64,000 nucleotides of DNA, taken from assembly GCA_948144175.1 (NCBI GenBank), contig CANXME010002275.1, positions 4,649,001 to 4,713,000 on the forward strand, given 5' to 3'. The stretch comes from Closterium sp. NIES-65 (lineage: Eukaryota > Streptophyta > Zygnematophyceae > Desmidiales > Closteriaceae). The position numbers and the translations under genes are program-made. The notes under the pieces are model-generated. The model saw only the letters and a program-made list of their open reading frames with translations. It did not search any database and had not been told where the DNA came from. Positions 38,202-62,068 of this stretch are shown piece after piece (the stretch's first letter is position 1; each line of letters starts with the position of its first letter).

Positions 38202-41189
38202 ATGGTCGCAACACCAGTGATACTAGCTGCTGAATGCGGCGAGATAGAAGCGTCGCTCGGCGACGGTTGCGGAGCGACGAAACAGTGCCACCACGACGCG
38301 TGCGACCACCACGCGACAGATTCCGCCATCGGCGACGGCCGCCGCGCTCTGACTGACACGGATTACGACCGTCGTGACGGCGACGACGAACCTTCGCAGA
38401 AGCTTCCGCCGCACGGCGAGGAGATGAACCTGTACACGGAGGCGTCCGCGTTTGAAGGCGCCGCGATAGTGGCGATGATTCAGCGGCGCGACGAGGAGGT
38501 GGGAACGGAGCAGAAGATCCTTCAGATCACCATGGAGGACGGAATCACGCTCTCCGTGGAGCTAGACCCCGCTGAGAAGCGCCTGAACGAGCTGGGCTAC
38601 CGGCAGGAGCTCCACCGCTCTCTGGTGAGTTCTCGGCTCTCCCTATCACTCAAAGTAAACGGAGCAGAAAATAATTTGTCCCATCTCCCACCTCCCATCT
38701 GCCATCTGCCATCTGCCACCTCCCACCTCCCATCTGCCACCTCCCACCTCCCATCTGCCACCTCCCACCTCCCATCTCCCACCTCCCATCTCCCATCTCC
38801 CACCTCCCATCTCCCATCTCCCATCGCCCATCTCCCATCTCCCACCTCCCATCTCCCATCTCATCGCAAGCCCGTGTCCATCCCTCCAACCCCTCTCCTC
38901 CCCTCAGCGTCTCCTGGCGCCCTACGCAGTGGGCGTGTGCTTCATGACTGTCCCCATCCCCCCATCCCCCCATCCCCCCATCCCCCCATCCCCGTGCTTC
39001 AACTCTCAGCGTTTCCTCGGCCTCTACGCAGTGGGCGCCATTACGCGGCCTCTACACGGCGTGTCTTTCATGACTGTCCCCATTCACCCCCCATCTCTCC
39101 CTCTCCCCCCCATGCCCCCAACCTCTCTCCCTCCCCACAGCGTTTCCTCGGCCTCTACGCAGTGGGCGTGTCTTTCATGACTGTATTCGCCGGATTCGTC
39201 CCCACCTACGCGTACGTCCCTTTCCCTCCCCTCCCCATTCGCATGCCCCATGCATGCATGTTCGTACGTCCCCACCTACGCGTATGTCCCTTTCCTTCCC
39301 CTCCCCACTCGCATGATCCTGCGTGTGTGCCGTATAAAACAAGTACAAAGGGTAAAAACGATCGGCGCCCACCTTGGGCTATTTCGGTACTGGTGGATCA
39401 CCGCCCTCTTCCCTCCCTTCTCCCCTTCCTATACCCTCCCCTCACTCGATTTTCACACACGCTCTTCTCACTCTCTTCCTTGAACTCTGTACCAATGGAC
39501 AAGGGTTCATCAACGGTGGGCCAGGGGGGCTCATCTGGTACTGGTGGATCACCGCCCACTTCGTCCCTCCCCTTTCCCCTCCCAATCCCCCCCACTCACT
39601 CCCTCCTGTCCCCTGTCACTCGCCATTTCCTCTCCCTCACTCCACAATTCATTCCCTCCACTCCCCCGTCCCTCCCCCTTCCCCTCCCCTGCTGCAGCCA
39701 GGGCTTCATCAACGGCGGCCCAGGAGGGCTCATCTGGTACTGGTGGATCACCGCCCTCTTCGTACACCTTATAGGCCTCTCCATGGCCGAGATAGCATCC
39801 TCGTTCCCAGTAAGACTACACCCTGTGTTACATTGTTTGGCAATCAGTGGTATCACAGATCACAGCCCTCTTCGTACACCTTATAGGCCTCTCCATGGCC
39901 GAGATAGCATCCTCGTTCTCGGTTAGAGAGTTTATTCTATACTGCATTGTTGCCGGTCAGTGGTGCCACTCATAAACAACTTTCTTCGTCCACCTTATAG
40001 GCTTCTCCATGGCCGAAATAGCATCTCCATTTCCAGTGAAAGTACACTCTTTACTATACTGTTGTCAGTCAGTGGTGCCACTCATAACAATTCTCTCTGT
40101 CCACCTTATAAGCCTCTCCATAGCCCAGATAGCCTCCTCTCATTCCCAGTAAGAAAGTAATGCTCCACTATCTTCTTTTACCACACTTTACCGCACTGCA
40201 CTGCAACCAACACATCCACCCGCTTAACCATTGCATTCCTCCATCATTCATCATTCCCCCACTCACACACCAAGTTCACAATCTTTCGTGTCTCCAACCT
40301 AAAGGCGCGGCTTATCCACCTGTGACATGAAGAAAGCAGCCGCTGTGACATGAAGAATTTTCCTAAGCTGCAGCTCGCCTAGTCTCATGGCTAAAGGCGC
40401 GGCTTAACTACCTTTCCTTTTGTGACATGAAAGACCAAGTGTGCCAGCCACCTGTCCTTGCCACCTGTCCTTGCCAGCTGTCCTTGCCACCTGTCCTTGC
40501 CACCTGTCCTTGCCACCTGTCCTTGCCACCTGTCCTTGCCACCTGTCCTCCTTCTGATTTCACTATCCTCTTCCTCCAGACAGCTGGCTCGCTCTATTTC
40601 TGGGCGGCAGCACTGGCAGGGCCGAAGTGGGGGCCACTGGCTTCATTCATCACGGTGAGATGCGATCTGATTTGATTCACGGTGAGATGCGGTCTGATTT
40701 GATTCACGGTGAGATGCCATCTGATTCGATTTACAGTAAAACGCAATCTGGTTTTCCTAGTGCCCGTTGCGCTTGCCTTGCTCTGGCCGGGGTGGATGCT
40801 GCGTCTAGGCTTGTTTGTGTGCGAATGCGACTTTTGAGTCGACTCCAATTTTTTAGGCGCCTCAAAAATCGTGCGAATGCGACTTTTGAGTCGACTCAAA
40901 CGTCTCTCATGCGCCGCTGTGTGACTGACTGATGCCGCTTGCCCGTTCTCCCCTGTGGCAGGGATGGATGGAGTTCCTGGGCCTGGCTGTGTGTCGAAGC
41001 AGCGTCTCTCATTGCTCCCCTGTGCTCCCCTGTGCTCCCCTGTGCTCCCCTGTGCTCTGGCAGGGGTGGATGGAGTTCCTGGGCCTGGCAGTGTGTGGCG
41101 CCAACGTCTCTTATGGAGGCTCCGTTATTCTGCAAGTGCTCATCCTCATCTCAACAGGTACACTCACTCACATTGCCGGATTAAACACA

Positions 41190-41253
<64 letters not shown>

Positions 41254-44200
41254 TGCACACGCACATGCACACGCACACGCACACGCACGCGCACACGCAC
41301 ACGCACACACACGCACACATGCATGCGCACGTTGATGAGATGAATATACACGGTCGGTTGGAATCTCTGGGGTTTCACATACACATGCAGAGTTGCGTTG
41401 AATAAGGCGAAGAGTTTTGGGGAAGGATGGTGTGCACATGCATACTGGGGAAGGGGATGGTGTGCACATGCATACTGGGGTTTCCATCCATTGGTATACG
41501 CACGTGCCATGCAGTGCCATGTGTCATGCCATGCTGTCACATGCCATGCCATACCATACCATACCATACCATACCATACCATACCATACCATACCATACC
41601 ATACCATACCATACCATACCATACCATACCATACCATACCATACCATACCATACCACACCACACCATACCATACCATACCATACCATACCATACCAAGCC
41701 ACCGCATGCCATCTCATGCCATCCCTTGCCATTCCATGCCATACCTCCCTGCCACCCAAACACCAGGCGGTGCTGATGGGGGTGGCTACCTCCTCAGCAA
41801 GTACGCTGCCTCTGCCATTACATGCCATGCCATCCTGCCTTCCTTTTCCCTGCAACCCATATAACAGGCGGTGCTGATGGGGGTGGCTACCTCCTCAGCA
41901 AGTACGCTGTTTTCGCCATTGCGTGCGGCTTTGTGCTTATCTGCTTCCTCATCAACTGCTTATCAGTGCGCACTGTAGCAACAGTCATGGTCGTCTCTGC
42001 TGCCATTCAGGTGAATCCTCAGGTGGTCTTCTCAAGATGAGTCCTTCGTTGTTCAGGTGATTTTCACACCGTACTGCTCAGGTCATTTTCCGCTTGGCAC
42101 CTGTGCTACCTTGGAACCTTGTTGCCATGTTGCAAGGTGACTTTTGAGTCGACTCAAAAGCTTGACTTCTCAGGTGACATACCATACCAGCACCGATGCT
42201 CTCGCCGCGTGTGATGAGTTTATTTTTGAGTCGTTCATTTCTGAGTTGACTCAAAAATGGAACCTTGTTACCATGTTATTTTGAAAGAAGAGTGTATCTG
42301 AGACGTCTCAAGAACACTCAGAAATGGAACCTTGTTGCCATATTACTAAACTTCTTAGGTCACATACCAGCAGTGATGCTCACGCCTTTGACTTTCCCAG
42401 TTCTCCTCTTCTGGCCTTTCCCCTTTACCCTCATATAGCCACGTGTGGGGAGGGTGTTTTTTGAGACGTCTCAAAAACACCCTCTCTACACGTCACTTTG
42501 ACTTTCCCATTTCTCCTCTTCTGGCCTTCCCCCTTATACCCTCACATAGCAGTAGAAGTCGTTCTCATCGTCATGCTGATTCTAGGGACATCCACCCACC
42601 CATCAGACCCTTGTTTCGCCCTCATCCCGCCCTCATCCCGCCCTCATCTCCCGTTCGCCCCATGTATCGCAGATAGCAGCAGCAGTGGTGCTCATCGTCA
42701 TGCTGCCTCTAGTGGCGCCCACCCATGAGCCCGCATCCTGGGTGTTTGGGGACTTTGGCAACAACAGAGACATCACACTCACGCCCAGCAATGTGAGTCT
42801 GGACACGCTGGGTCAGAAAAAATACAGCCTACCAGCGTTGTGAGTTTTTTCACGCACTTTGGGTCTACGCACGTGGGGTCTACGCACGTGGGGTCTACGC
42901 ACTTGGGGTCTACGCACTTGGGGTCTACGCACGTGGGGTCTACGCACTTGGGGTCTACGCACGTGGGGTCTACGCACTTGGGGTCTACGCAGTGAGAAAG
43001 TCGATTTGTCTCAAGGAGATATGACTTCTCAATTTGTGTCAATTTGTGTCAATTTGTTTCCGTTGTCACAACTCCTCTTGCTCCCTCCCGGACCTACTCC
43101 CGGACCCACACCCTATCCACCCCCCTTCATCAGGCCTACTCCTTCCTCATCACTCTCTTCGTCTCCCAGTGCTTCCTCAACAGCTACAACTGCTTGTCTC
43201 GGCTGCTAAACAGTCCCCATTCCCTCCTCTCCCTCGTCTTTCTCCTGTCCCTCGTATTCTCCTGCCCCCATCCTTTCCAGGCCTATTCCTTCCGCAGCAC
43301 GCTCCTCGCATCCCAGTACTCCCTCTACGGCCACGACTGCTTCTCTCGGGCTGCTGAACTGTCCCCATTCCCTCCTCTCCCTCGTATTGTCCCTCTTCTC
43401 CCTCCCCTTGCCCCTCTTCCCAGGCCTACTCCTTCCGCATCACGCTACTCGTCTCACAATACTACCTTTACGGCTACGACTGCTTGGCGCACCAGTCCCC
43501 ATTCCCTCCTCTCCCAACTCCCCTCCTATTCTCCCGCCCCTCATCCTTCCCTCCCTCCCAGGCCTATTCCTTCCTCATCACTCTCCTTGTCTTCCAATGC
43601 TCCCTCAAATCCTACAACTGTGTGTCTTGGGCTGCTACCACGTCCCCATTCCCGCTTCTTCCACTTCTCCCTCCTCTTCCTACTCTCGTTCTTACTGTCC
43701 CGCCCAGGCCTATTCCTTCCTCATCACCCTCCTCGTCTCCCAGTACTCCCTTGATGGCTATAAAACAGCCGTTCCTTATCAACCCCCTTCCCCTCTCTAT
43801 CCCTCGCCTCCTTCCTCTTCTCCCACCGTCACCCTACCAATCCTCCTTCCCCAGGCCTGTTCCTTCCTCATCACTCTCCTCGTCTCCCAATACTCCCTCT
43901 ACAGCTACGACTGCGTCTCTTGGGCGTCTAACACGTCCCCATTCCGTTCTCTCCCTCCTGCCTCTCCTTTCCCTCCTCTTGCACCCGCCCAGGCCTACTC
44001 CTTCCTCATCACTCTCCTCGTCTCACAGTACTCCCTCTACGGCTACGACTGCGTGGCGCATCTCGCAGAAGAGACAAAGAAGGCCGACCGGACGGCGCCG
44101 CTCGCAATCATGTCCTCTCTGACCACAGTGACCGTGCTGGCGTGGCTGCTCGTGGTGGTGCTGACGTGGAGCATCCAGGATCCAGCTCATCTGTTCGTGG

Positions 44201-47200
44201 CAGAGAGTGTGACAGGTGGCATGCAACCAGTGGTGCAGATCATGTGGGACGTGTTTTACACTCGGTAAGAATGAAGGGTGGGGCGGGGAGGATGGGAGGG
44301 GGGGGGGGGGAAGGAGATGGGGGGACGCGGGAAAAGGGGAATTACGGAAGGAGAAGGAAGATGGCTGTTGTCTTGCACTCGCTCTTACTAACATGCCGGT
44401 ACTGAAAGAATGCACTGAAAAGAAGTTTCTGTCCCGTGGCACTTGCAAGCCAAGTTTTCCCTGCCACCCCAGCCACCAGGAATGCACTTGCAAGAAAAGA
44501 GGTCTTTGTCCCATGGCACTTGCAAGAAAAGAGGTCTTTGTCCCATGGCACTTGCAAGAAAAGAGGTCTTTGTCCCATGGCACTTGCAAGAAAAGAGGTC
44601 TTTGTCCCATGGCACTTGCAAGAAAAGAGGTCTTTGTCCCATGGCACTTGCAAGAAAAGAGGTCTTTGTCCCATGGCACTTGCAAGAAAAGAGGTCTTTG
44701 TCCCATGGCACTTGCAAGAAAAGAGGTCTTTGTCCCATGGCACTTGCAAGAATAGAGGTCTTTGTCCCATGGCACTTGCAAGAAAAGAGGTCTTTGTCCC
44801 ATGGCACTTGCAAGAAAAGAGGTCTTTGTCCCATGGCACTTGCAAGAAAAGAGGTCTTTGTCCCATGGCACTTGCAAGAAAAGAGGTCTTTGTCCCATGG
44901 CACTTGCAAGAAAAGAGGTCTTTGTCCCATGGCACTTGCAAGAATAGAGGTCTTTGTCCCATGGCACTTGCAAGAAAAGAGGTCTTTGTCCCATGGCACT
45001 TGCAAGAAAAGAGGTCTTTGTCCCATGGCACTTGCAAGAAAAGAGGTCTTTGTCCCATGGCACTTGCAAGAATAGAGGTCTTTGTCCCATGGCACTTGCA
45101 AGAAAAGAGGTCTTTGTCCCATGGCACTTGCAAGAAAAGAGGTCTTTGTCCCATGGCACTTGCAAGAAAAGAGGTCTTTGTCCCATGGCACTTGCAAGAA
45201 AAGTGGTCTTTGTCCCATGGCACTTGCAAGAAAAGAGGTCTTTGTCCCATGGCACTTGCAAGAAAAGAGGTCTTTGTCCCATGGCACTTGCAAGAAAAGA
45301 GGTCTTTGTCCCATGGCACTTGCAAGAAAAGAGGTCTTTGTCCCATGGCACTTGCAAGAATAGAGGTCTTTGTCCCATGGCACTTGCAAGAAAAGAGGTC
45401 TTTGTCCCATGGCACTTGCAAGAAAAGAGGTCTTTGTCCCATGGCACTTGCAAGAAAAGAGGTCTTTGTCCCATGGCACTTGCAAGAAAAGAGGTCTTTG
45501 TCCCATGGCACTTGCAAGAAAAGAGGTCTTTGTCCCATGGCACTTGCAAGAAAAGAGGTCTTTGTCCCATGGCACTTGCAAGAAAAGAGGTCTTTGTCCC
45601 ATGGCACTTGCAAGAAAAGAGGTCTTTGTCCCATGGCACTTGCAAGAAAAGAGGTCTTTGTCCCATGGCACTTGCAAGCCTTCGCACACCCTTCCCACCT
45701 CCCCCCACCCCCTCACTTCCAGTCACTGCAGTTACTATGGTCATCTGCACTTGGTTCTTCCTCCTACCCTTCCCAATTACCCTCCCCTCTCCTCTACTTT
45801 GCCGCTTCTCTCTTCTCTCCTCCCCGCACCTCTTCCTCCCCCAACCCCCCCGCAGTTACGGCTCTGGGTTGGGAGCGCAGGTCTTAACAGTCGTCATCTG
45901 CATCTCTTTCTTCGGAGCAACTCTTTCATGCCAGCTGGGGGCATCTCGTGTGGTGAGTAGGCTGAATGCTGCTGTGCGGTACTGTGTGGTGCTGTGTGGT
46001 GCAGCAAGCACTGTGTACCATCTGTGCTACTGAGCGATCAAGAGTTCTCAAATGCGACTGCGTTCTTCGGAGCCACGCCACTCTCTCGTGCCAAATTGGG
46101 CCATCTCGTGTGGTGAGTCGGCTGCGTGTTGCTGCGCGCTGCTGCGTGTTGCTGCGTGCTGCTGCGTGCTGCTGCACAGAGTGCGTTCCTGTACTGTGGG
46201 CTACTGAGTGAGTGATCAAGGGTTTTTGAAAACGATTGTGTTTCTTCGGAGCCACTTTCTCGTGTCAGCTGGGGGCATGTCGTGTGGTGAGAGGGCAGTG
46301 TGGGACCTCTCAAACCTTGTTCCAGTGTGGGACCTCTCAAACCTTGTTCCAGTGTGGGACCTCTCAAACCTTGTTCCAGTGTGGGACCTCTCAAACCTTG
46401 TTCCAGTGTGGGACCTCTCAACCCCACTCTTCTCCCCCCCTTTTCCCTCCTGGTCAAACACCCCCCCACGCCTACTCCACACCCCCCCACGCCTACTCCA
46501 CACCCCCCTAGCAGCCTCTCCCTTCCCCTTGCTCTGGCGGCGCCTGGCATCAAACCGTCAGAGCCAGGCATCCTCCACGCTCTGCTCCACGCTCTGCTCT
46601 TATTTTGAGTCGACTCAAAACACGAGTCGACTCAAAACACGACTCAAAACACGAGTCGACTCAAAACACGAGTCGACTCAAAACACGAGTTGGCTCAAAA
46701 CACGAGTCGACTCAAAACACGAGTCGACTCAAAACACGAGTCGACTCAAAACATGAGTCGACTCAAAACACGAGTCGGCTCAAAACACGACTCAAAACAC
46801 GAGTCGACTCAATACATCAAACCGTCAGAGCCAGGCATCCTCCACGCTCTTCTTCGGCCTCGCTTCCATCTCCACCATCGCTTGGATCTCCCCCACCACC
46901 CCACCCCCCTTCCCCCTTTCCCCGCCCCCCTGCCCTCTACTCTCACAGGCCTATGCCCTAGCTAGGGATGGTGGCCTGCCCTTCTCCTCGCTCTGGCGCT
47001 GCTTGGCACCCAACCGAGTGCCAGTGTGACCACTGACACTCTCCGTGTTCGTCGGGCTGCTCTTCCTGCTGCCTGTGCTCGCCTCCTCCACGCTCTTCTC
47101 CACAATCGCTTGGATCCTCTCCCCCACTCCCCACCCCCTACTCCCCCAGGCATATGCCCTGGCTAGGGATGGTGGCCTGCCCTTGTCCTCCCTCTGGCGA

Positions 47201-47929
47201 CGATTGGCACCCAACCGCGTTCCAATATGGGCACTCACGCTCTCCGTGCTCGTGGGGCTGCTCTTCCTACTGCCCGTGCTCGCCTCCTCCACGCTCTTCT
47301 TCGCCCTCGCATCCATCTCCACCATTGCTTGGATCTCCGCCTACTCCATCCCCATCCTCTTCCGCACCCTGCAAGATGAGAGAAATTTTCCGCCCGGCCC
47401 GTTTTATCTGCCCAACTACGTCGGGTTCACCGCTGGGTAGGTGAATCGAAAAGAAAAAAAAAGAAAAAAAAAGGTTTGGAAGGGGTGAGGGGGAGGAGAG
47501 GAGTGAAGAGGGGTGGGGTGGAGGGGAGGTGTGGATGGGAAAGGGCAACGACAGGTGAGGCCAAGGTATTGACACCTTAGTATTGGTCTGACATACATGG
47601 CTAGTTCCCATTGCCCCTCTTTCACATCTCCTTACATTTTGCAGTGAAAATTAATTCCTCATTCTGCATCCCCCAACACACCCCCTTCTAATCGTTTTTA
47701 CAGGAAAATGGTCCACGTGGTTGCTCTGCTCTGGGTGCTCTACACCCTCGTCGTATTCAACCTCCCGACGATGTTTCCTATCACGGTGGAGAATTTCAAT
47801 TGGGCACCGGTCGCCATAGCTGTGTGGATGAAGATGTTTATTGCGTGGTGGCTGCTGCATGCTAGGTATTGGTTCAAAGGCCCTGTTAGAGAATTTGAAC
47901 CTGTTGATGAAAATTCTGTAACAAAATAA
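38202..47929 (+). CDS. BAT1: BAT1/GABP-type amino acid transporter, 11 exons
   Basis: Exons that join in one frame with GT-AG introns: 38202-38624, 39141-39211, 39698-39809, 40580-40654, 41064-41157, 41868-42010, 42673-42792, 43993-44264, 45856-45952, 47150-47436, 47704-47929. Total is 1920 nt (639 residues). The product is an APC-superfamily permease like plant BAT1/GABP, a multi-pass carrier for amino acids and GABA. Family text: KRLNELGYRQEL (exon 1), GGPGGLIWYWW and MAEIASSFP (exon 3), LYFWAAALAGPKWGP (exon 4), SQYSLYGYDCVAHLAEETK (exon 8), AYALARDGGLPLSSLWRR (exon 10), NFNWAPVAI and WWLLHARYWFKGPVREF (exon 11). The first in-frame ATG gives a hydrophilic N-terminal extension. The next, at 38424, gives 565 residues, nearer the usual 510-530. 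AATAAA overlaps the stop. The introns are full of partial exon copies and minisatellites. Exon limits are my reading, not cDNA. Confidence 0.88.
38683..38865 (+). repeat. Intron 1 minisatellite (7/14-bp)
   Basis: Tandem CCCATCT, CCCACCT and GCCATCT heptamers, about 25 copies. Confidence 0.85.
38908..39314 (+). repeat. Partial copies of exon 2 around the real exon
   Basis: Two 5' copies precede real exon 2 (39141-39211): 38908-38951 and 39010-39077. Each follows CAG and each runs out at CATGACTGTCCCCAT. The second has an internal duplication of about 22 bp. After the real exon, its last bases and the intron start (CCCCACCTACGCGTACGTCC, 39201-39246) recur at 39268-39314. Only the middle copy has both splice sites in a usable frame. 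Confidence 0.85.
39376..40148 (+). repeat. Partial copies of exon 3 on both sides
   Basis: 5' copies lie at about 39376-39410 (TACTGGTGGATCACCGCCC) and 39502-39563. The full exon is 39698-39809. Three 3' copies carry the second half of the exon plus its donor: about 39859-39922, 39977-40035 and 40088-40148. All retain CACCTTATAGGC-like text followed by GT. Confidence 0.85.
40443..40552 (+). repeat. Intron 3 minisatellite (13-bp)
   Basis: About eight copies of CACCTGTCCTTGC directly before exon 4. Confidence 0.85.
40645..40750 (+). repeat. Tandem copies of exon 4 donor region
   Basis: The exon 4 end and donor (TTCATCACGGTGAGATGC) are followed by three more copies of a roughly 27-bp unit, GATTCACGGTGAGATGC and variants. 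The last is diverged. Confidence 0.75.
40964..41015 (+). repeat. Partial copy of exon 5
   Basis: GGATGGATGGAGTTCCTGGG after GGCAG matches the start of exon 5 (41064). It decays after about 50 bases into a CTCCCCTGTG decanucleotide repeat. Confidence 0.8.
41187..41330 (+). repeat. CA microsatellite in intron 5
   Basis: A long (CA)n run grading into CACACG, ACATGC and CACGCA variants. Confidence 0.95.
41545..41700 (+). repeat. CCATA pentanucleotide repeat in intron 5
   Basis: About 30 tandem CCATA units with CCACA variants near 41655-41665, flanked by CATGC variants. Confidence 0.95.
41765..41825 (+). repeat. Partial copy of exon 6
   Basis: After CAG, GCGGTGCTGATGGGGGTGGC and about 30 further bases match the start of exon 6 (41868). 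The copy then diverges into CATGC repeats. The preceding CACCAG keeps an acceptor. Confidence 0.85.
42549..42600 (+). repeat. Partial copy of exon 7
   Basis: GCAGTAGAAGTCGTTCTCAT and the following CGTCATGCTG resemble exon 7 start (42673, GCAGCAGCAGTGGTGCTCAT). The match fades after about 50 bases. Confidence 0.7.
42858..42992 (+). repeat. Intron 7 minisatellite (15-bp)
   Basis: About nine copies of TGGGGTCTACGCACG/T. Confidence 0.9.
43134..43992 (+). repeat. Six tandem partial copies of exon 8
   Basis: Copies start at 43134, 43281, 43424, 43562, 43708 and 43855. The real exon starts at 43993, so spacing is 138-147 bp. Each has CAG followed by GCCTAYTCCTTCC and about 75 bases matching the exon 8 start, then the tail TCCCCATTCC. 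The copies stay largely open in the exon frame, but none carries the rest of the exon or its donor. Confidence 0.9.
44485..45678 (+). repeat. Intron 8 minisatellite, about 37 copies of 32 bp
   Basis: Near-perfect tandem array of a 32-bp unit containing AGAAAAGAGGTCTTTGTCCC and ATGGCACTTGCA. Variant units with AATAGAGG occur near 44752, 44944, 45072 and 45360 (6, 4 and 9 units apart), and one AAGTGG variant lies near 45201. The standard unit contains no stop in any frame, so it creates open frames of several hundred codons on both strands. None is regarded as a gene. Confidence 0.97.
45732..45765 (+). repeat. Internally deleted copy of exon 9 start
   Basis: CAG then TTAC followed by GGTCATCTGCACTTGGTTCT resembles exon 9 (45856) with its middle missing. 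Confidence 0.6.
46060..46287 (+). repeat. Two 3' copies of exon 9 end with donor
   Basis: 46060-46112 and 46240-46287 repeat the last about 50 bases of exon 9 (TTCTTCGGAGCCAC, CATCTCGTGTG) with GTGAG donors. Confidence 0.8.
46306..46425 (+). repeat. Intron 9 minisatellite (27-bp)
   Basis: Four to five copies of GTGTGGGACCTCTCAAACCT plus TGTTCCA. Confidence 0.9.
46605..46815 (+). repeat. Tandem palindrome array GAGTCGACTCAAAACAC
   Basis: About a dozen 17-bp units, each holding the perfect palindrome GAGTCGACTC. A few units are shortened (ACTCAAAACAC) or changed (GAGTTGGCTC, GAGTCGGCTC). Confidence 0.9.
46949..47125 (+). repeat. Long defective copy of exon 10
   Basis: After CACAG, the text GCCTATGCCCTAGCTAGGG and what follows parallel exon 10 (47150) for about 175 bp. 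An in-frame TGA follows GTGCCAG (about 47027-47029) where exon 10 has TGG. The distal part (CTCCACGCTCTTCTTC) has further short echoes at 46527-46590 and 46818-46895. Confidence 0.85.
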
Positions 47930-50148: not shown

Positions 50149-53100
50149 ATGCAGCTCCAGCGTCGTCCGCGTGAGTCCCTCACCCCCCAACAGCTTCGTG
50201 AGTGGTACGCTAGTTGGGGTTATAGGGGTGGCCGCGCTGCGACTACTTCTATTGCTACTGCGGCTACCACTGCTCCTGCTGCTCCTGGCGGTGGCCAGAT
50301 GCAGCTCCAGCGACGTCCGCGTGAGTCCCTCACGCCCCAGCAGCTTCGTGAGTGGTACGCTACTTGGGGTTGTTGGGGTGGCCGTAGTGGGAGTCGTCCA
50401 GGAGTGAGTAGTTTGGCAGCTGCTTGTAGTGGCCAGGTGCAGCTGCAGCGTCGTCCGTGCGCGGTCCTTTCGCCCTAGCAGCTTCGTGAGTGGTACGCTC
50501 AGCGTGACGGGTCACGGGGTACTGCTCGCTGTCCGTACGTCATTCGCATTGGTGCTCGGACTGGTCAGCCTTGCGAGACGTTTGGTCACGCAGAGTCCCG
50601 CTACTTCGCCCGTCTGAGCGACGCCTGGCGTACGGAGTTTGGCGACGCGGCTGAGCTCCCCGACTGGGTGGAGCTGCTTAGGCTGCGGGTGGATATCTAT
50701 ACTGTTGACTATGATGCTATCCTCACTGCCATGTATGCATTGCCTACTAGTGATGAGGGTGACTTTTACCTTTGTGTTCCGCCTGACCCGGGCATTGAGG
50801 CTGCTGCTCTAGGTGCTGGTGAGGTTGCTGCTCTAGGTGCTAGTGCGTCTGCTGCCCCAGGCGCTGATGAGTCTGCTCTCTCAGGTACCACGTCGGCTCA
50901 GACCTTACACACCTTCACCCTTGACTCGGGTGCTTCCCGCTCCTTCTTTCGAGACCGCACCACGCTTACGCCGCTTATTCGGCCAGTTGCGGTCTCCTTG
51001 GCGGACCCCTCTGGGGGTCCTGTCCTTGTCCCACTTCTCCACTCTCTTGCCGTGTCCGGCAGCCCCCTCTGGCACCCTGTCAGGTCTCTAACCCCCCTCG
51101 TTCTCTACGAACTTGGTGAGTGGTGCTGATCTACAAGATGGGAGGGTGGACCAGTTCACTCCTGCGAGTCAGCGGGTGACCCACTGTACGTGTGCTCGGA
51201 CGGGCCGACACTTGGCCACGTTTACCCGTCGGCCGGGGTCGAGCCTGTACACACTGACTACTGAGTCTCCTCCGGTTGCTGAGTCTGGTCAGGTAGCTGC
51301 GTCGGGTCAGGTGTTTGCTGCTGCGTCCAGGTCTGGTCCTGAGTCTGCTCCCTGCTCGTGTCGTCTCTTGTCCCACCAGACTCTCCTCTGGCACCACCGC
51401 CTTGGTCACCCCTCCCTGCCTCGTCTCCGAGGCATGGCCTCCCGTGTCCTTGTCTCTGGTCTCCCCCGGTCCCTCCCTCCCCTCCCTCCGAGGCCTGCCC
51501 CTGCCTGCGTTCCCTGCGTCGAGGGGCGGTAGCGCGCCGCCCCCTCACTCCTCCGAGTTTCCTCTGACAGAGGCTCCGCTTTAGACTCTTTACATGGACG
51601 TGTGGGGCCCTGCCCGCGTCCGTGGCCTGGGTCACGAGCGTTACTTCCTGTTGGTGGTTGACGACTACTCGCGTTACACCACGGTGTTCCCCTTGCGCAG
51701 CAAGGGTGACGTCACTGAGGTGTTGATCGACTGGATCCGCGCAGCTCGTCTCCAGCTCAGAGAGAGTTTCGGCTCGGACTTTCCTGTTCTGCGTCTGCAC
51801 TCTGACAGGGGCGGGGAGTTTTCCTCTGCCCTTCTGGGAGCCTTCTGACGTGCACAGGGCATCCGCCAGACCTTCACGCTTCCGGCCTCTCCACAGAAAA
51901 ATGGGATTGCTGAGCGCCGCATTGGCATGGTCATGGACGTCGCTCGTACGTCCATGATCCATGCGGCTGCTCCCCATTTTCTGTGGCCGTTTGTGGTTCA
52001 GTACGCAGCGCATCAGATCAACCTTCAGCCCCGGGTCTCCTTGCCAGAGACCTCCCCCACCTTGCGGTGGATGGGGAAGGTTGGCGATGCGTCTGCGTTT
52101 CGTGTCTGGGGATCTCGGGCGTTTGTCCGCGACTTGTCTGCGGACAAGCTGTCCCCCCGTGCTGTTCCCTGCGTCTTCCTTGGCTTCCCCCCTGACGCGC
52201 CTGGTTGGCAGTTTTACCACCCCACCTCGCGCCGTGTTCTGTCCTCCCAGGACGTCACCTTTGACGAGTCGGTGCCTTACTACCGTCTCTTCCCCTACCG
52301 CACTGTGCCCCTCCCCCCGCCACCGCTCTTCCTTGCGTCAGGTCCCCCCCCGGTAGACCCCCTCCCCCCTCAGGGTCCTGCCCCGTCAGGTGTGTCCCAG
52401 GTAGACGCAGTCGAGCCTTTTGAGGTAGCTGTTGACTCTGGTGCTGCTAGGGGTGCTGAGCCTGGGGGTGCGGAGCATGGGGGTGCGGAGCTTGGGGGTA
52501 CGGAGCCTGGGGGTGCTGAGCCTAGGGGTGCGGAGCCTAGGGGTGCTGGGTCTGCTCGTGTGGCCTCTGACGGTGCTGGGTTTGGGGTCCCTTCGGGTGC
52601 TTCGTCGAGGCTGAAGCTACCCTCTCCACAAGAGCTGCGCGAGTGGTTTGCCCAGCGCTAGAGCCGTGCTGCTGGAGCTGGAGGTGCTGCTGTTACTGCT
52701 GACCCTGGGGTCGGCACTCGAGTTACTGGAGCCACTGATCTTGGAGGTGCTCGTACTGGTGGTACTAGAGCTGCTGGGACTGGGGGTGCTGCTGGGGCTG
52801 CTGGAGTTGGTCCTGCTGGAGGTACAGCTGGAGCTGCTGGCGGTACTGGAGCTGAGGGTCCTGCTGGAGTTGGTGCTGCTGGAGCTGCTGGAGTTGGTGC
52901 TGCTGGAGCTGGAGCTGCTGGGGGTGTTGGCGCTGGTGGTGCTGCTGGCGCTGGTGCTTCTGAGGTGCTGGAGTTGGCGCTGTTGGAGCTGGAGGTGCTG
53001 CTGGCGCTGGTGCTGCCGCTGGGGGTACTGGTGCTGTCCCTGCTGGTTCTGGAGGCGCTGCGCGGCAGCGGCCGTACTTAGCTCCGCTCCTTGAGCAGGT

Positions 53101-56138: not shown

Positions 56139-59100
56139 CTATACACGACTAGAAACTGTGTCAACAAGGCCTAACTGCACACAACACCTCTGGTGGTCAC
56201 AAGGCGGAAGCGCCTTGGTGAAGATGTCTGCAGTGTTGGCCTCGGACTCCACAAACTCGAAGCGAGCCTGTCCACGTCTCTGCAACTCTCGCAGAAGAAA
56301 GTACCTGACGTTAATGTGCTTCACTCCGCTCTCCAGTCGCGGCTCTCGACAAAGGAGAATCGACGCCTTGTTGTCAGTGAACAAGGTCGGTGCAGAGCTC
56401 GGCCGCTCACCAAGGTCGGCGAGCAAGAAGGTCAACCAACGCAGCTCCTGTGCCGCCATGGCACCAGCGTAGATCTCAGCCTTAGCTGTAGAGGTCGAGA
56501 TTGAAGAGAAGCGCGTGGACCGCCACGAAACAGCTCCAGAACCCAAGCTGAAACAGTACCCCTGAGTAGACCTATGAGTCTCAGCGTCGTCACGTAAGAA
56601 GAGTCACAGTGACCAGTAAGTACGATAGGCTGCTGCCCTCCAAGAACTAGCCCCACGCCCGATGTCGTCGCTAGGTACTTCGCCACCCTCACAACTGCCG
56701 TCCAGTGAACAGGACGGTGTCTCCCTGGCGCAACAAAGCGAGCAAGGATGCTGAGAGGGAAGGCGAGGTCCGGGCGAGTGCAAGTTATCAGGTACATGAG
56801 GCAGCCCACCAGCTCTACGTAGGGACCACTAGAATCAAACGGCTTGTCAGGAAAGGGTCCAGTAAGTCTATGGTCAACAGCAAGAGGTGTGCGCTGTACT
56901 GTGGAGTGCTGAAGCTCGAACCGCTGAAGGACCTGCTGCACCAAGTGTGACTGTGAGAGTGTAATGGTGCGACCAGCTCTGTCCCTGGTGATCTGCAGGC
57001 CAAGGTAGTGGCGCAGCTCACCAAGGTCAGTGCACGTGTGTCTCTTCTGCAGTTCGGACTTCACGTCTCCCAAGGCAACCCTGTCAGCAGTGGCGAAAAC
57101 CAGGTCGTCGACGTAGACCAGAACAAAGAACGGTGTAGAGTTACGACAAACGAACAGCGACGGGTCGGCAGAAGACGGCTGGAACCCAAGGTCAGAGAGG
57201 GTAGAACAAAGAGTGTTGTGCCACTCACGAGGAGCCTGACGAAGACCATAGACAGGTCGCCTCAGCCTCCACTGGGTCCCAGGAGGGAAAGTGTCAGTAA
57301 AGTCAGAGGGACGACGCAGCCAGACCTCCTCGTGTAAGCTACCCTGAAGGAAAGCAGTGGAGAATTCGATAGAGTGTAACTCGTAGTCTCTCTGTGCTGC
57401 TATGTGCAGTAACACCCGAAGAGTGGTCATCTTCGGGGTAGGCACGAAGGTCTGAAAGAAGTCAACTCCCTCGCGCTGACTAAAACCTCTAGCCACGTAG
57501 CGCGCCTTGAATACCGGAGGAGATCCCGGTGGCAGCTTAACCCTGTAGATCCACATGCCATCAGAGATCCCGTTCGCCCCAGGGGGGGGAACCTCGTTGA
57601 CGTAGGTGCCTGTGGATCTATAGGAGGCCATCTCTGCATCCATGGCAGCTCTCCACTGAGAGGCCCAAGGCCTTGACACTGCCTCAGCGTAAGTGCGAGG
57701 AGTCGGTATGTCAAGGGCGTCGGGGTCTCCCTCAGGGGCGAGCAGCATGGCACAGAGATGTGGGGAAGCGGCTGCCAGGAACTCTAGCTCAAACTGCTTG
57801 TCCTCTAGGGCGTCACAGCCAAGGGCAGACTCACCCCCGACGGCCAGAAGACCAATAGGAGGAGCAGCCACAAGACCGGTGGCGTAGTCAAGGCGGCGAG
57901 TGGAGGCAAACTCAGTGACTGCGGCAGTAAGGGTGGAGACAGAGGAGACAGAGGCACAAGGGTCGGAAACAAGAGAGGCGAGAACACGAGAGAGAACAGG
58001 ACGGTACGTGCGGTAGTAGTCAGTGACAGGAGTAGAGAGAGAAGCAGTGAAGGCCAGCTCACGAGGAGACGGAAGGAGAGACGGAGACGAACGAGGCGGA
58101 CTAGAACGAAAGAGGGCAGTACGAAGGTCAGTAACGAGAACAGGAGACGAGGGACGAGCACGAGGGGAGCAACGAGAGGCCCAATTCTGAGGAGGAGGGG
58201 ACAACGGAGGCTGAGAACGAGGGAAAACAGCCGAGGAGGGGTCAGGAGGAGGAAGCGGAGGACCCGAGACGGGAGGAGAGGGGGAGGAGGAAGGAGAGCA
58301 GGAGGGGAGACCGAGGGCCCGAAGACCAGAGACAGGAGGAGGAGGCGGCGGCCGCTGCTGCTGCTGCTGCGGCGGCGGCTGCTGCTGCTGCGGCGGCTTC
58401 TGCTGCTCCTCCTGCTGCTGAAGCGGCTCGAGCTGCTGCGCCTCCTGCTACTGCGGCGGCTCCAGCTGCAGCTGCTCCTGCTGCTGCTGCTGCTGCTGCT
58501 CCTCCAGCCGCTGCAACTCTCTCTCGTCTCTCTCCAACTCCAACTGCTCCTCACGGGCACGGCAAACACGAGCCTGGTGCCGGGTCGGGTAGGGGTGGGG
58601 GGGAGGAGTAGTGTCGGGGGTTGCGGCAGCCCCGGGACCGCCCTCCAAAGCACCCGGCGCACCACCCCCAAAGTCAGCACCACCAACAGCAACACGACCA
58701 GGCTCACCAGGACCCGAAGAGGGTGCACCCGCACCCCCAGACGTAGCACCCCCAAAGTCAGCAGGACCAACACCAGCTCCCGGAAGACAAGAGTCTCCTG
58801 CAACCACTGGCTCAGCTCCAACTCCAGCACCCCCAGAGCTAGCACCTGTAGGGCCCTCTCCACGAGCACCGGCTCCCGCAGGGTCTGCAGTAGGTTGCGA
58901 GGAGGACTGCAAGGAAGGTCGCTGCACCTGAGGGGCTACCGAGGGGGGAGGGGTAGCGTGGGACACACCTGACGGGGCGGGACCAAGGGGGGGAGGCTGT
59001 ACCGGGGGAGCAGGAGGGGGAGCGGAAGTCAGGAAGAGAGGGGGAGGAGGAACCGGGAGACCTTGACTGGGGTACCTGACGTAGTAGGGGGTGGACTCCT

Positions 59101-62068
59101 CGAAACGGATGTCATGGGAGTCAAAGAACCGGTGAGAGGGAGGGTGGTAAAAGGTGAAGTCAGAGGAGTCCTCAGGGAAACCAAGGAAGACAGAGGGAGC
59201 GGCGCGAGGCGAGAGCTTGTCCGCAGAAGTGTCGCGGACAAGAGCCAAGCAACCCCAGACACGAAACCTCGACACAACACCAAGGGACCCGGTCCAAAGA
59301 CTGGTCGGTGAAGCCTCTGGCCGAGAGACGCGTGGCCAGAGGTTCAGCTGGTGAGCGGCGTACCTACCCGCGTAGGGCAACAGAAAATGGGGGGCACGGG
59401 CGTGAGTCAAGGAGGTGCGGGCAATCTCTATGACCAAGCCTATGCGGCGCTCAGCAACCCCATTCTGCTGTGGGGACTCTGGAAGCGTCCAGGACTGACG
59501 AATGCCCTGCTCGCGACAGAATCCAGCAAGAATGCCGGAGCAAAACTCACCCCCATGGTCAGAGTGAAGACAGCTGACACGACGACCATGAGTGCCCTTA
59601 GTGGTAAGCAACCACCTTATCAGCGTAGAAGTCACCTCAGACTTCTTCGCCAGTGGGAACACTATGGTGTAGCGGGATTAGTCGTCAACGACCACAAAAA
59701 AGAAACGCTCGCGCTTAGGGCCAAGGCAAGGGGCGGGGTCCCAGACGTCCAAGTGGAGCGTCTCAAAAGGCTCGGTGGCCGGACGAAGGGAGGAGGAGTG
59801 AGGGGTGGCGCGCAGCCGACCCTCGACGCAGGGACCGCACGGCGGTGCAAGCGAAGGCGGCAGCGACGGCAAGACACGCGGGAGGCCTAAGACAAGACGC
59901 TGACGAGACATAGCGCGCAGATGAGGGAGGGACGGGTGCCCCGTCCGGTGGTGCCACAGAACGGTGGGGTGTGCAAGCGACCAGCAGGAGCACGACGCAG
60001 CAACTGGACCAGACACGGGAACTTGACCAGACACAGCTACCTGGGGGGACGCAGCAACCTGGTGAGACGCAGGGACCAGACTGGGGGAAGTAACCGGGGC
60101 CGGGGGCAGGAGTCGCTGCTGCTGCTGCTGCCGCTGCTGCTGCTGCTGCTGCTGCCCACCAGTGCCAGTGTGAAGTGTGTAGAGACCAGAGCCCGGCTCG
60201 GCACTAAAGGTGGCAAGAGGCGAGTAAGTGTCGCCGTCAACACAAACCGCCGTCTCACCAGAGGGCTCAATCCACACACCCACGTGCTGACTCACAAGAG
60301 GCCTCACGCCCACCAAGTTCCTCGAGAACGAGGGGACCTGGAAGCCAGTTAGAGACCCAGAGGGAACAGCAGGGCAAGGAAGAGTAGTAGTGTAGCGAGC
60401 AGTGACTGGTCCTGAGGTGGGATCAGCCAGGGCCACAGAGACTGGCGCAGGAAGTGGAGTAAGTGTCGTGTAGTTGCGGAAGAAGCAGTGCAAAGCCCCA
60501 GAGTCCAGAGTGAGAGACAGTGAAGCGTCCTCCGAAGTAGCGCCTGGACTAGTGTCTACACAAGTGCCTACACTAGCAACAGGCAACTCAGCAAGACCAG
60601 CACCTAAGCTAACAACACACGAGTAAACAGAGTCAGAAGCACTAGAATCAACAACAGCATACAAAGAATGAGGAGTTCCTAAGAGATCAAGCAACTGAGA
60701 AGCAGACATGCCCCAAAGAGTGGAGCCGTACGTCTGAACAAGAGGTAACTAGTCAGAGGCAGGGCCGCCAACGCCAAAGGCCAAGCGAACCGTGTCAGTG
60801 AGCTGAACAAAGCACTGACCAGGAGGGTGGGTGCGACCACAAGGCTGGCCTCGGCAAGCACCTGTCAGAACCTGATAGGTGCACGAAGGGTGAACAACAC
60901 CTCGCTGGGGCGGACGCTGTCCCAGCCCCAAAACCTGCTGCTGCCGCTGCTGCTGCCGCTGCTGCTGCGAGGGCTGCTGCAAGGGGAGGGGCTGCTGCTG
61001 CTACACCTGCTGCTGCTGCTGGGCCAGGTACCACGCCGCTGCTCCACCCACCACGGCCGGCAGACCAGGAGGAGGCTGACGAGTCTGGGTGTCGCCTCCA
61101 CCAGCTGCAGTAGGGGAGTCATTGGCTGCTGCACGAGACGCCTCTCCAGGCCCTGCGCTCCCGCCGCCACCGGTCGGCACGCCACCCCCACCACCTCCGC
61201 CGCCAACGCCACCACCGCCGCCGCCGCCTGCACCCTGACCGCCCCTCCTGCCACCCCTACCTCGAGACCGCGACGTAGTCGTAACAGCAGCTGCGGTCAC
61301 GTCAGTAGTGGCAGTGGCTAGCGAGGCAGTAAAAGTGGGCAACTGAGGGACAGTGCACCCGTGAAACAGTGGAGGGGGCACAACACCATCGGCAGAGGCT
61401 ACTGAGCGGAGGTTGCTCTCGACGTCCTTGAGCGCAGACTCAAGGACCTCGATAGTGAGCTCACTAGGGTGCTTCAGAAGAAGCGTGTCACGAACCGAGG
61501 CAAGGCGATCAGGGAGGATAGTGGCAATGAAGTAGATAGTAATCGCCATAGGAGGGGGAAGCAGTACAAGCTGTGCGTCAGTGCAAGCAGTGCGGTAGCT
61601 AGAATCGAGCGAGCGGAGGTGAGCAATCAAGTTAGCAGAGCGCTCAAACGAGGCGAGGTCAGGGAACAAGAACGGTAGGAAGAGGCGGCCAAGGGAGACA
61701 GTGGTGGGAGTAGCGTAGCGGGCCTTGATCGCAGTCAGGAACTCACTAGCAGTGCGAACCTGAGTGAAGTGGGCCTCCTCAGACTCAGGGAGGAGGCTGC
61801 TAACAGCGATGCAGGCCGCAGCGTCACGCGACTTCTACGCCGTCAGGTCAGCACGCTGGCGGGTAAAGCGGTCTCTGGCGGCGTCGTCAGGGGCAGAGCC
61901 TAAAGACGTAGGGTCGTCGGGCGCAGGAAGGTCACCAGTAGCGTGCGCCCAGAGGGACTCGCCTGCCTGGATCTGGATCTCTAAAAGGCGATGCGCGCGT
62001 AGGAGCCAGACCGGAAACTCGAGCGGCCTACCGTCAGCATCAAAACGAAGAACCCTAGGGGTCGCCAT
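56139..62068 (-). pseudogene. Element I gag-pol (one frame with scattered stops)
   Basis: ATG at 62066-62068 (MATPRVLRFDADGRPLEF). Gag is interrupted by TAG at about 61835 and again at 61000, with another TAG at about 60748. The Gln-rich region holds the knuckle C-x13-C-x3-4-H-x4-C (about 60830-60890). Protease LDSGAL is near 60500. Integrase is interrupted by TAA at 59678-59680 (a Tyr codon in relatives), then SDHGGEFCS and SPQQNGVAERRIG. A TAG lies at 58448-58450. RT has YVDD at 57104-57115. All segments from 62068 to about 56580 share one frame. A frameshift near 56580 then separates RNase H, which shows AKAEIYAG and FTDNKAS. Confidence 0.88.

Follow-up and report, generated by a model that had tools for sequence, protein, structure and literature searches.

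The BAT1-like gene and the partial exon copies in its introns

The window analysed here, a 64,000-nucleotide stretch of the Closterium sp. NIES-65 genome (874 Mb in 2400 contigs as searched by us; 876 Mb in PMC10407611), contains a BAT1-like permease gene with 11 exons, in which every intron is GT–AG and a single open frame encodes 639 amino acids (Table 1). The product falls in the Pfam family AA_permease_2 (9.1e-52), and the exon chain matched the best database match, a partial Closterium protein from strain NIES-64 (P0001), through exon 10 with 1 residue different. The GC content of the gene is 58% in the exons and 53% in the introns. Ty1/copia elements with RVT_2, integrase and gag-pre-integrase domains flank the gene on both sides (1306–31179, 51927–52661 and 56432–60709), and Rfam and tRNA scans gave no matches.

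Most exons of this gene are accompanied by diverged partial copies, or echoes, in the adjoining introns. To detect them, each exon was aligned to all introns of the gene by the Smith-Waterman method and segments scoring at least 44 were kept. Twenty same-strand segments, from exons 2, 3 and 5–10, reached this score, and all of them lie in an intron adjoining the source exon. When the introns were shuffled 20 times with dinucleotides preserved, the best scores of the exons averaged 22.4 and never exceeded 38, and the reverse strand gave at most 24; the echoes are thus closer to the exons than random intron sequence is, and we regard them as confirmed to be real and beyond chance. The original prediction of about 20 echoes held as well: two of the 20 segments (39010–39037 and 39046–39077) belong to a single copy that is split by a 24-nt insertion, and a few shorter copies lie beyond the 20, namely an exon 9 donor-side copy at 46040–46112 (score 93 with its flank, shuffles at most 53), one short copy from the donor side of exon 2, and three of 27 bp from the donor side of exon 4 that contain 8–10 nt of exon each.

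Table 1 The BAT1-like gene, its exons, the echoes and the intron 8 satellite (positions in the window)
Feature	Position	Strand	Details
BAT1-like amino-acid permease gene, whole	38202–47929	+	first ATG may be 38424
Exon 1	38202–38624	+	
Exon 2 acceptor-side array	38850–39140	+	copies 38908–38951 and 39010–39077, each with intron flank and AG
Exon 2	39141–39211	+	
Exon 2 end, donor-side copy	39272–39334	+	10 nt of exon plus intron flank, GT kept
Exon 3 interior, truncated copy, acceptor side	39363–39411	+	
Exon 3 nt 2–66, acceptor-side copy	39500–39564	+	91%, AG lost (GG)
Exon 3	39698–39809	+	
Exon 3 donor-side array	39858–40154	+	unit ~112 bp; 39858–39921 (98% over 61 nt), 39983–40035, 40093–40148; all with GT
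Exon 4	40580–40654	+	
Exon 4 end, short donor-side copies	40655–40754	+	27-bp unit; GT at 40682, 40709, 40736
Exon 5 start, acceptor-side copy	40898–41012	+	copy 40962–41012, AG kept
Exon 5	41064–41157	+	
Exon 6 start, acceptor-side copy	41709–41825	+	copy 41767–41825, first 42 nt identical, AG kept
Exon 6	41868–42010	+	
Exon 7 start, acceptor-side copy	42494–42598	+	copy 42546–42598, AG changed to AC
Exon 7	42673–42792	+	
Exon 8 acceptor-side array	43065–43992	+	six units of 138–147 bp at 43134, 43281, 43424, 43562, 43708, 43855; tail common to most; every AG kept
Exon 8	43993–44264	+	
Intron 8 satellite, purely intronic	44484–45678	+	32-bp unit x 37, near-identical
Exon 9	45856–45952	+	
Exon 9 end, donor-side copies	46040–46302	+	46040–46112 and 46241–46286, GT kept
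Exon 10 acceptor-side copies	46835–47126	+	46949–47126 (nt 1–175, 201-bp period); truncated 46835–46913
Exon 10	47150–47436	+	
Exon 11	47704–47929	+	

Copies were found at 11 of the 20 internal splice borders and in 8 of the 10 introns. Upstream copies had been predicted for exons 2, 3 and 5–10, each behind an AG; they are present on the acceptor side of exons 2, 3, 5, 6, 7, 8 and 10, and 11 of the 13 copies that carry an exon start keep the AG, the exceptions being the exon 7 copy and the exon 3 copy at 39500. The claim did not hold for exon 9, where the upstream copy was of borderline strength, with p 0.033 in one of nine permissive tests. On the donor side the predicted copies of exons 2, 3, 4 and 9 were all found, and GT is retained in 9 of 9. 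Exons 1 and 11 gave no echo above the threshold of 44. A donor copy of exon 1 (p 0.013) gave a fragmentary alignment and was left uncounted, and candidates at the exon 9 acceptor, the exon 6 donor, the donors of exons 1, 7 and 10 and the acceptors of exons 4 and 11 were unconvincing (p 0.013–0.77).

As foreseen, none of the intron copies in this gene completes an exon, and none carries both exon ends. Most of the repeated units run on into the intron (78.8% over 306 nt on the exon 3 donor side, 72% over 819 nt at exon 8), and the copies are on the same strand as the exon and adjacent to it, as expected from the proposed serial tandem duplication across exon–intron borders. Of the 7808 intron bases, 5672 belong to satellites or to border arrays, the limits of the latter being placed by hand. 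The 32-bp satellite of intron 8 has more units in a second copy of the locus on another contig (C440). A palindromic motif around GAGTCGACTC is repeated across several introns (40836–42480 and 46607–46816), and the GAGTCGACTC motif forms a 17-bp array in intron 9.

Drift of the echoes and decoy splice sites

All 21 echo segments of a list drawn up without the short exon 4 copies are present in the second locus copy on C440. In an alignment of the two copies outside the 32-bp satellite array, we counted 9 substitutions in 1920 exon bases, 16 in 1315 echo bases, 52 in 3433 other intron bases and 41 in 1619 satellite bases. The divergence of the echoes differs from that of the exons (p 0.023) and not from that of other intron (p 0.50). 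No indel was seen in exons or in echoes; other intron had 6 (3433 aligned bases) and satellites had 11. Because the echoes are present on C440 and diverge like intron, they are old, shared and drifting.

An excess of third-position differences had first suggested selection on the echoes. Exons and echoes differ at 37 of 416, 34 of 418 and 83 of 415 first, second and third codon positions, 78 differences being synonymous and 76 not; a conserved exon with a drifting echo would give about 43% synonymous differences by a hand calculation, and the observed share is near that. The exon 8 echoes, compared with each other, show 6, 9 and 12 changes by codon position. Selection was rejected on these grounds and on that of the intron-like drift against C440. 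In the exon 8 echoes the exon-derived part is 79% alike, against 60–66% for the intron-derived part, and the unit tails are 66% alike. The exon part also looks too fresh in three copies (39010, 39858 and 41767), and in two exon 3 echoes the exon and intron parts have diverged to the same extent (18.5% and 21.6%). The sharp step in identity at the border is partly explained by rapid turnover of the polypyrimidine stretch.

We also asked what the retained splice sites would do. If used, 17 of the 20 decoy sites would give a frameshift or a premature stop and 3 an in-frame insertion of 34, 46 or 95 residues, in a computation that placed one exon 3 donor a base off. At 43708–44264 a single open frame runs through exon 8 and the two echoes nearest to it, so that 95 or 46 residues would be added in frame if either of their acceptors were used.

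It could be supposed that the echoes are kept as splicing decoys, with acceptors and donors that bind parts of the spliceosome and bring about regulated intron retention, as the decoy exons of OGT do. The 20 decoy sites that keep AG or GT speak for this, as do the greater likeness of the exon parts than of the intron parts and the echo peptides found in some annotated Closterium proteins; in the human OGT gene, intronic exon-like decoys with splice sites are reported to be needed for intron retention (PMC12017769). However, the OGT decoy has both a 5' and a 3' splice site and a demonstrated effect (PMC12017769), whereas the echoes are half-exons with one site that drift like intron. By a hand estimate, the 20 of 22 dinucleotides kept are about what is expected at ~13% divergence, and copies occur also in housekeeping genes of two further families. 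We therefore consider maintenance as decoys improbable. The decoy sites that had been proposed are real as sequence; the regulatory role proposed with them has no support.

Echoes in other genes and in annotated proteins

A look at other genes of this genome had been suggested, and echoes were found in 15 of the 16 genes sampled, the window gene included: 4 of 4 genes of the BAT1 family (the window gene and three paralogues) and 11 of 12 unrelated genes, with 7 of 8 for chaperonins and 4 of 4 for RNA-polymerase subunits. Controls overall were the reverse strand, shuffles (for the BAT1-like gene and five chaperonin genes) and a published figure for chicken. At five BAT1 paralogue loci, echoes accompany 3 of 4, 6 of 6, 4 of 6, 5 of 7 and 3 of 4 segments (21 of 27 in total), the segments being crude protein matches and two of the loci near-duplicates of others; the three distinct genes give 13 of 16. 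At two of the paralogue loci (L010 and L011) the segments come from weak protein matches (24–71% identity).

Among chaperonin (PF00118) loci available ready-made, 12 of 16 have echoes; counted as distinct matches, these are 6 of 9, or 6 of 8 with L017 and L026 treated as a single one. No echo was seen in the 3.3–3.8 kb examined of the chaperonin gene on C1103 and C1667 (L017 and L026). Five chaperonin genes, drawn from about eleven loci, were fetched at length and have echoes at 21 of 25 coding segments, with 63 copies and control scores of at most 27 on the reverse strand and 29 in shuffles; the figure of 21 of 25 is biased upward because three of the five genes already showed repeated profile positions. 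Four genes for RNA-polymerase second subunits (PF00562) with scattered exons, fetched in part and from one contig each, have echoes at 11 of 13 segments with 30 copies, or 10 of 12 with 26 copies if one doubtful segment, itself partly an echo, is set aside. The polymerase counts are exclusive of intronless matches on C165 and C841 and of plastid-type rpoB copies, and locus L013 stands outside the counts. Segments of both families are profile matches with inexact exon limits; 4 of the 25 chaperonin and 2 of the 13 polymerase segments have no echo. About 20 near-identical copies of a plastid rpoB-like sequence were seen (C824, C1622, C1848 and others), often as inverted pairs on one contig; these may represent concatemers of plastid DNA or fold-back artefacts of the assembly.

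In 62 of 63 chaperonin and 28 of 30 polymerase cases, a copy upstream of its segment carries the 5' half and a copy downstream of it the 3' half, a side rule that tandem duplication across the border must produce. At one chaperonin exon start (L033, 5620–7038 on C1794), 12 units including the exon repeat at ~124 bp with 98–100% identity, and the near-duplicate contig C43 has the same number of these units, 11 upstream plus the exon.

Tandem exon duplication is common in eukaryotes, and the echoes could be complete duplicate exons, mutually exclusive or tandem, that decayed and lost one end. Some copies are long: one in a chaperonin gene reaches 215 nt, and at L040 three upstream copies span 91–93 of the 99 nt of a segment, so that a whole-exon copy is possible there. 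However, none of the 93 chaperonin and polymerase copies covers 95% of its segment, just as none is complete in the window, and copies with 100% identity are already partial at L033 (57 of 171 nt) and L014 (108 of 144 nt), so that partiality is original there. This makes decay of complete exons very unlikely.

Echo peptides, which may be annotation errors, were recognized by reading in 7 of the 19 Closterium records from a BAT1 search; in the Naga37s-1 record the peptide lies in a neighbouring gene fused to the permease. The strains concerned are NIES-53, NIES-54, NIES-64, NIES-65 and Naga37s-1. Among the best 8 of 97 non-Closterium records, the top self-match was a fused double gene and the next scores were low. 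The Naga37s-1 permeases P0005 and P0013 are annotated as fusions with a neighbouring HhH-like gene, and the start of P0013 matches intron 5; these fusions and this start are likely annotation errors. P0013 has a 9-of-13-residue repeat in its HhH part, and no further echo peptides were seen in the neighbouring HhH gene (one Closterium record, P0121) or in TVP38. The TVP38 test, in which four Closterium records were free of echo peptides by eye, is a weak one because well-annotated genes skip echoes.

False tandem copies could also be produced by long-read mis-assembly or error, and the inverted rpoB pairs of plastid type on several contigs may be fold-backs of that kind. As a source of the echoes this is more doubtful still, since the echoes are 0–21% diverged and common to separate contigs whose introns differ by 1.5%, the copies are direct with none inverted, and echo peptides occur in the annotations of NIES-53, NIES-54 and NIES-64. 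An origin by way of RNA (cDNA patches) or of a transposon (Pack-MULE or Helitron capture) has the Ty1/copia elements around the locus in its favour. It is extremely unlikely for copies that include intron flank with AG or GT, are confined to the vicinity of the exon they derive from, all point the same way and are arranged head to tail.

Probable duplication across splice borders and its relation to exon stuttering

We conclude that the echoes very probably arose by serial tandem duplication across splice borders and grew by unequal exchange between echo and exon, a process of the same kind as exon stuttering. The reading draws on the observed topology of the copies, on units that include intron flank, on intron-like drift, on the recurrence in 11 of 12 unrelated genes and on one exact-unit difference in copy number. 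That difference lies between two near-duplicate paralogues: on C1691 one old echo precedes the exon, and C1766 has the same echo plus one extra exact 173-bp unit, with an exact repetition of 203 nt. The extra unit joins the first 108 nt of the true exon to the tail of the old echo, the outcome to be expected if echo and exon exchanged unequally within the sequence that they share. A recent gain in C1766 is favoured because the identity is exact (a loss in C1691 is possible). Another near-duplicate pair, C1640 and C2400, differs by one echo.

The process would begin with frequent short tandem duplications that have one end in an exon and the other in the neighbouring intron; the units in the BAT1-like gene are ~70–200 bp. 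Each duplication would leave an intact exon and a half-exon that initially has its own AG or GT, and unequal exchange between the two would then add or remove exact units, so that arrays grow beside the exon. Duplications that alter the message, whether they fall within an exon or take in a whole one, would presumably be purged by selection, while half-exons that cross the border, with a single splice site, would survive by being removed with the intron, as exon definition suggests. The echoes would subsequently diverge about as fast as intron sequence, in the end beyond recognition, and their decoy sites would seldom be used.

In the BAT1-like gene 10 of 12 long-unit duplications lie at borders by our own count (two of six intron-only pairs being counted as separate long-unit duplications), compared with 25–32% predicted by a uniform model. 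Such an excess would be explained if intron-only copies fade faster, or if the constant exon re-seeds exchange. That this gene lacks whole-exon copies is statistically insignificant (10 arrays, P 0.30), and the half-exon sieve is unproven from this gene alone because the numbers are too small. Microhomology at breakpoints was also looked for, but gapless extension was too crude for diverged units, and only the C1766 event gave a clean junction.

The pattern had been thought to be an undescribed one; exon stuttering, however, has been described for chicken dot chromosomes (Hron et al. 2026), where it was found in 190 of 5572 introns, or 3.4% (PMC12954441). In the parts of that paper used here, stuttering is reported for birds, with gerbil genes mentioned as data not shown; it is linked to GC-rich dot-chromosome genes as an association without a GC cut-off, the copied source lies within 1 base of the exon border in more than 90% of cases, intron length varies extensively within the species, and the authors speculate on replication stress, G-quadruplexes or meiotic conversion (PMC12954441). 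Applying its thresholds (BLASTn-short, at least 20 nt and at least 42.1 bits, without its multiple-source-range rule; PMC12954441) to the BAT1-like gene gave 18 proximal hits in 7 of 10 introns, 0 distal and 0 on the minus strand, against a maximum of 24.3 bits in 20 intron shuffles. The source was within 1 base of the exon border in 8 of 18 hits and within 10 bases in 15 of 18, the alignments being trimmed by mismatches.

The Closterium case thus falls within the main definition of exon stuttering as given in that source (PMC12954441). As in chicken, the copies are direct tandem copies of exon edges with the splice site, strictly local and with the exons intact, and the introns are full of other tandem repeats (PMC12954441); imperfect tandem repeats, which are part of the stuttering definition, account for the intron coverage given above. 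Unlike the published case, the host is a streptophyte alga, 7 of 10 introns of one gene are involved instead of 3.4%, and echoes occur in 15 of 16 genes on many contigs instead of one chromosome class (PMC12954441). Exon GC is 58% in Closterium, and length differences are seen only between copies within one genome: near-duplicate loci vary in their satellites, by one unit between C1766 and C1691 and by one echo between C1640 and C2400, and most echoes are shared.

Other known systems are more distant. In the potato RdRp gene a duplicated block likewise crosses an acceptor and copies an intron end and an exon start, but there a new intron arose with a recruited cryptic donor (PMC4974935), whereas the Closterium copies lie serially inside existing introns. 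The BAT1-like gene model needs no new intron, and P0001 follows the simple exon chain. Intron creation of the Rogers type by AGGT duplication (PMC4974935) resembles the echoes in that tandem duplication gives spare splice sites; it differs in that the block duplicated in Closterium includes intron and is not purely exonic.

The main text of the Closterium genome paper makes no mention of exon copies in introns at the six places where 'exon' or 'intron' occurs, and PMC12954441 was the sole closely relevant work found in the literature, so far as it was accessible, on Closterium or zygnematophycean introns and on exon copies in introns. As far as that search reached, the Closterium echoes are the first stuttering outside vertebrates, and apparently genome-wide. 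We put forward more tentatively the wider possibility that stuttering is the main form of intron growth throughout this genome, with the exon, kept constant by selection, as an evergreen template that goes on seeding half-exons to both sides through unequal exchange, and with splicing by an exon definition strict enough to pass over thousands of half-exons with real splice sites.

Since it is found in 15 of 16 genes sampled of an alga related to land plants, at a density per gene far higher than in the chicken description, stuttering is neither special to birds nor bound to a single class of chromosomes. The 7 of 19 Closterium records with echo peptides, which may be errors, are a warning for annotation. 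The Closterium genes offer a direct view of intron growth, and they allow one to test in a natural setting how the splicing machinery distinguishes a true exon from numerous half-exons with a proper AG or GT.
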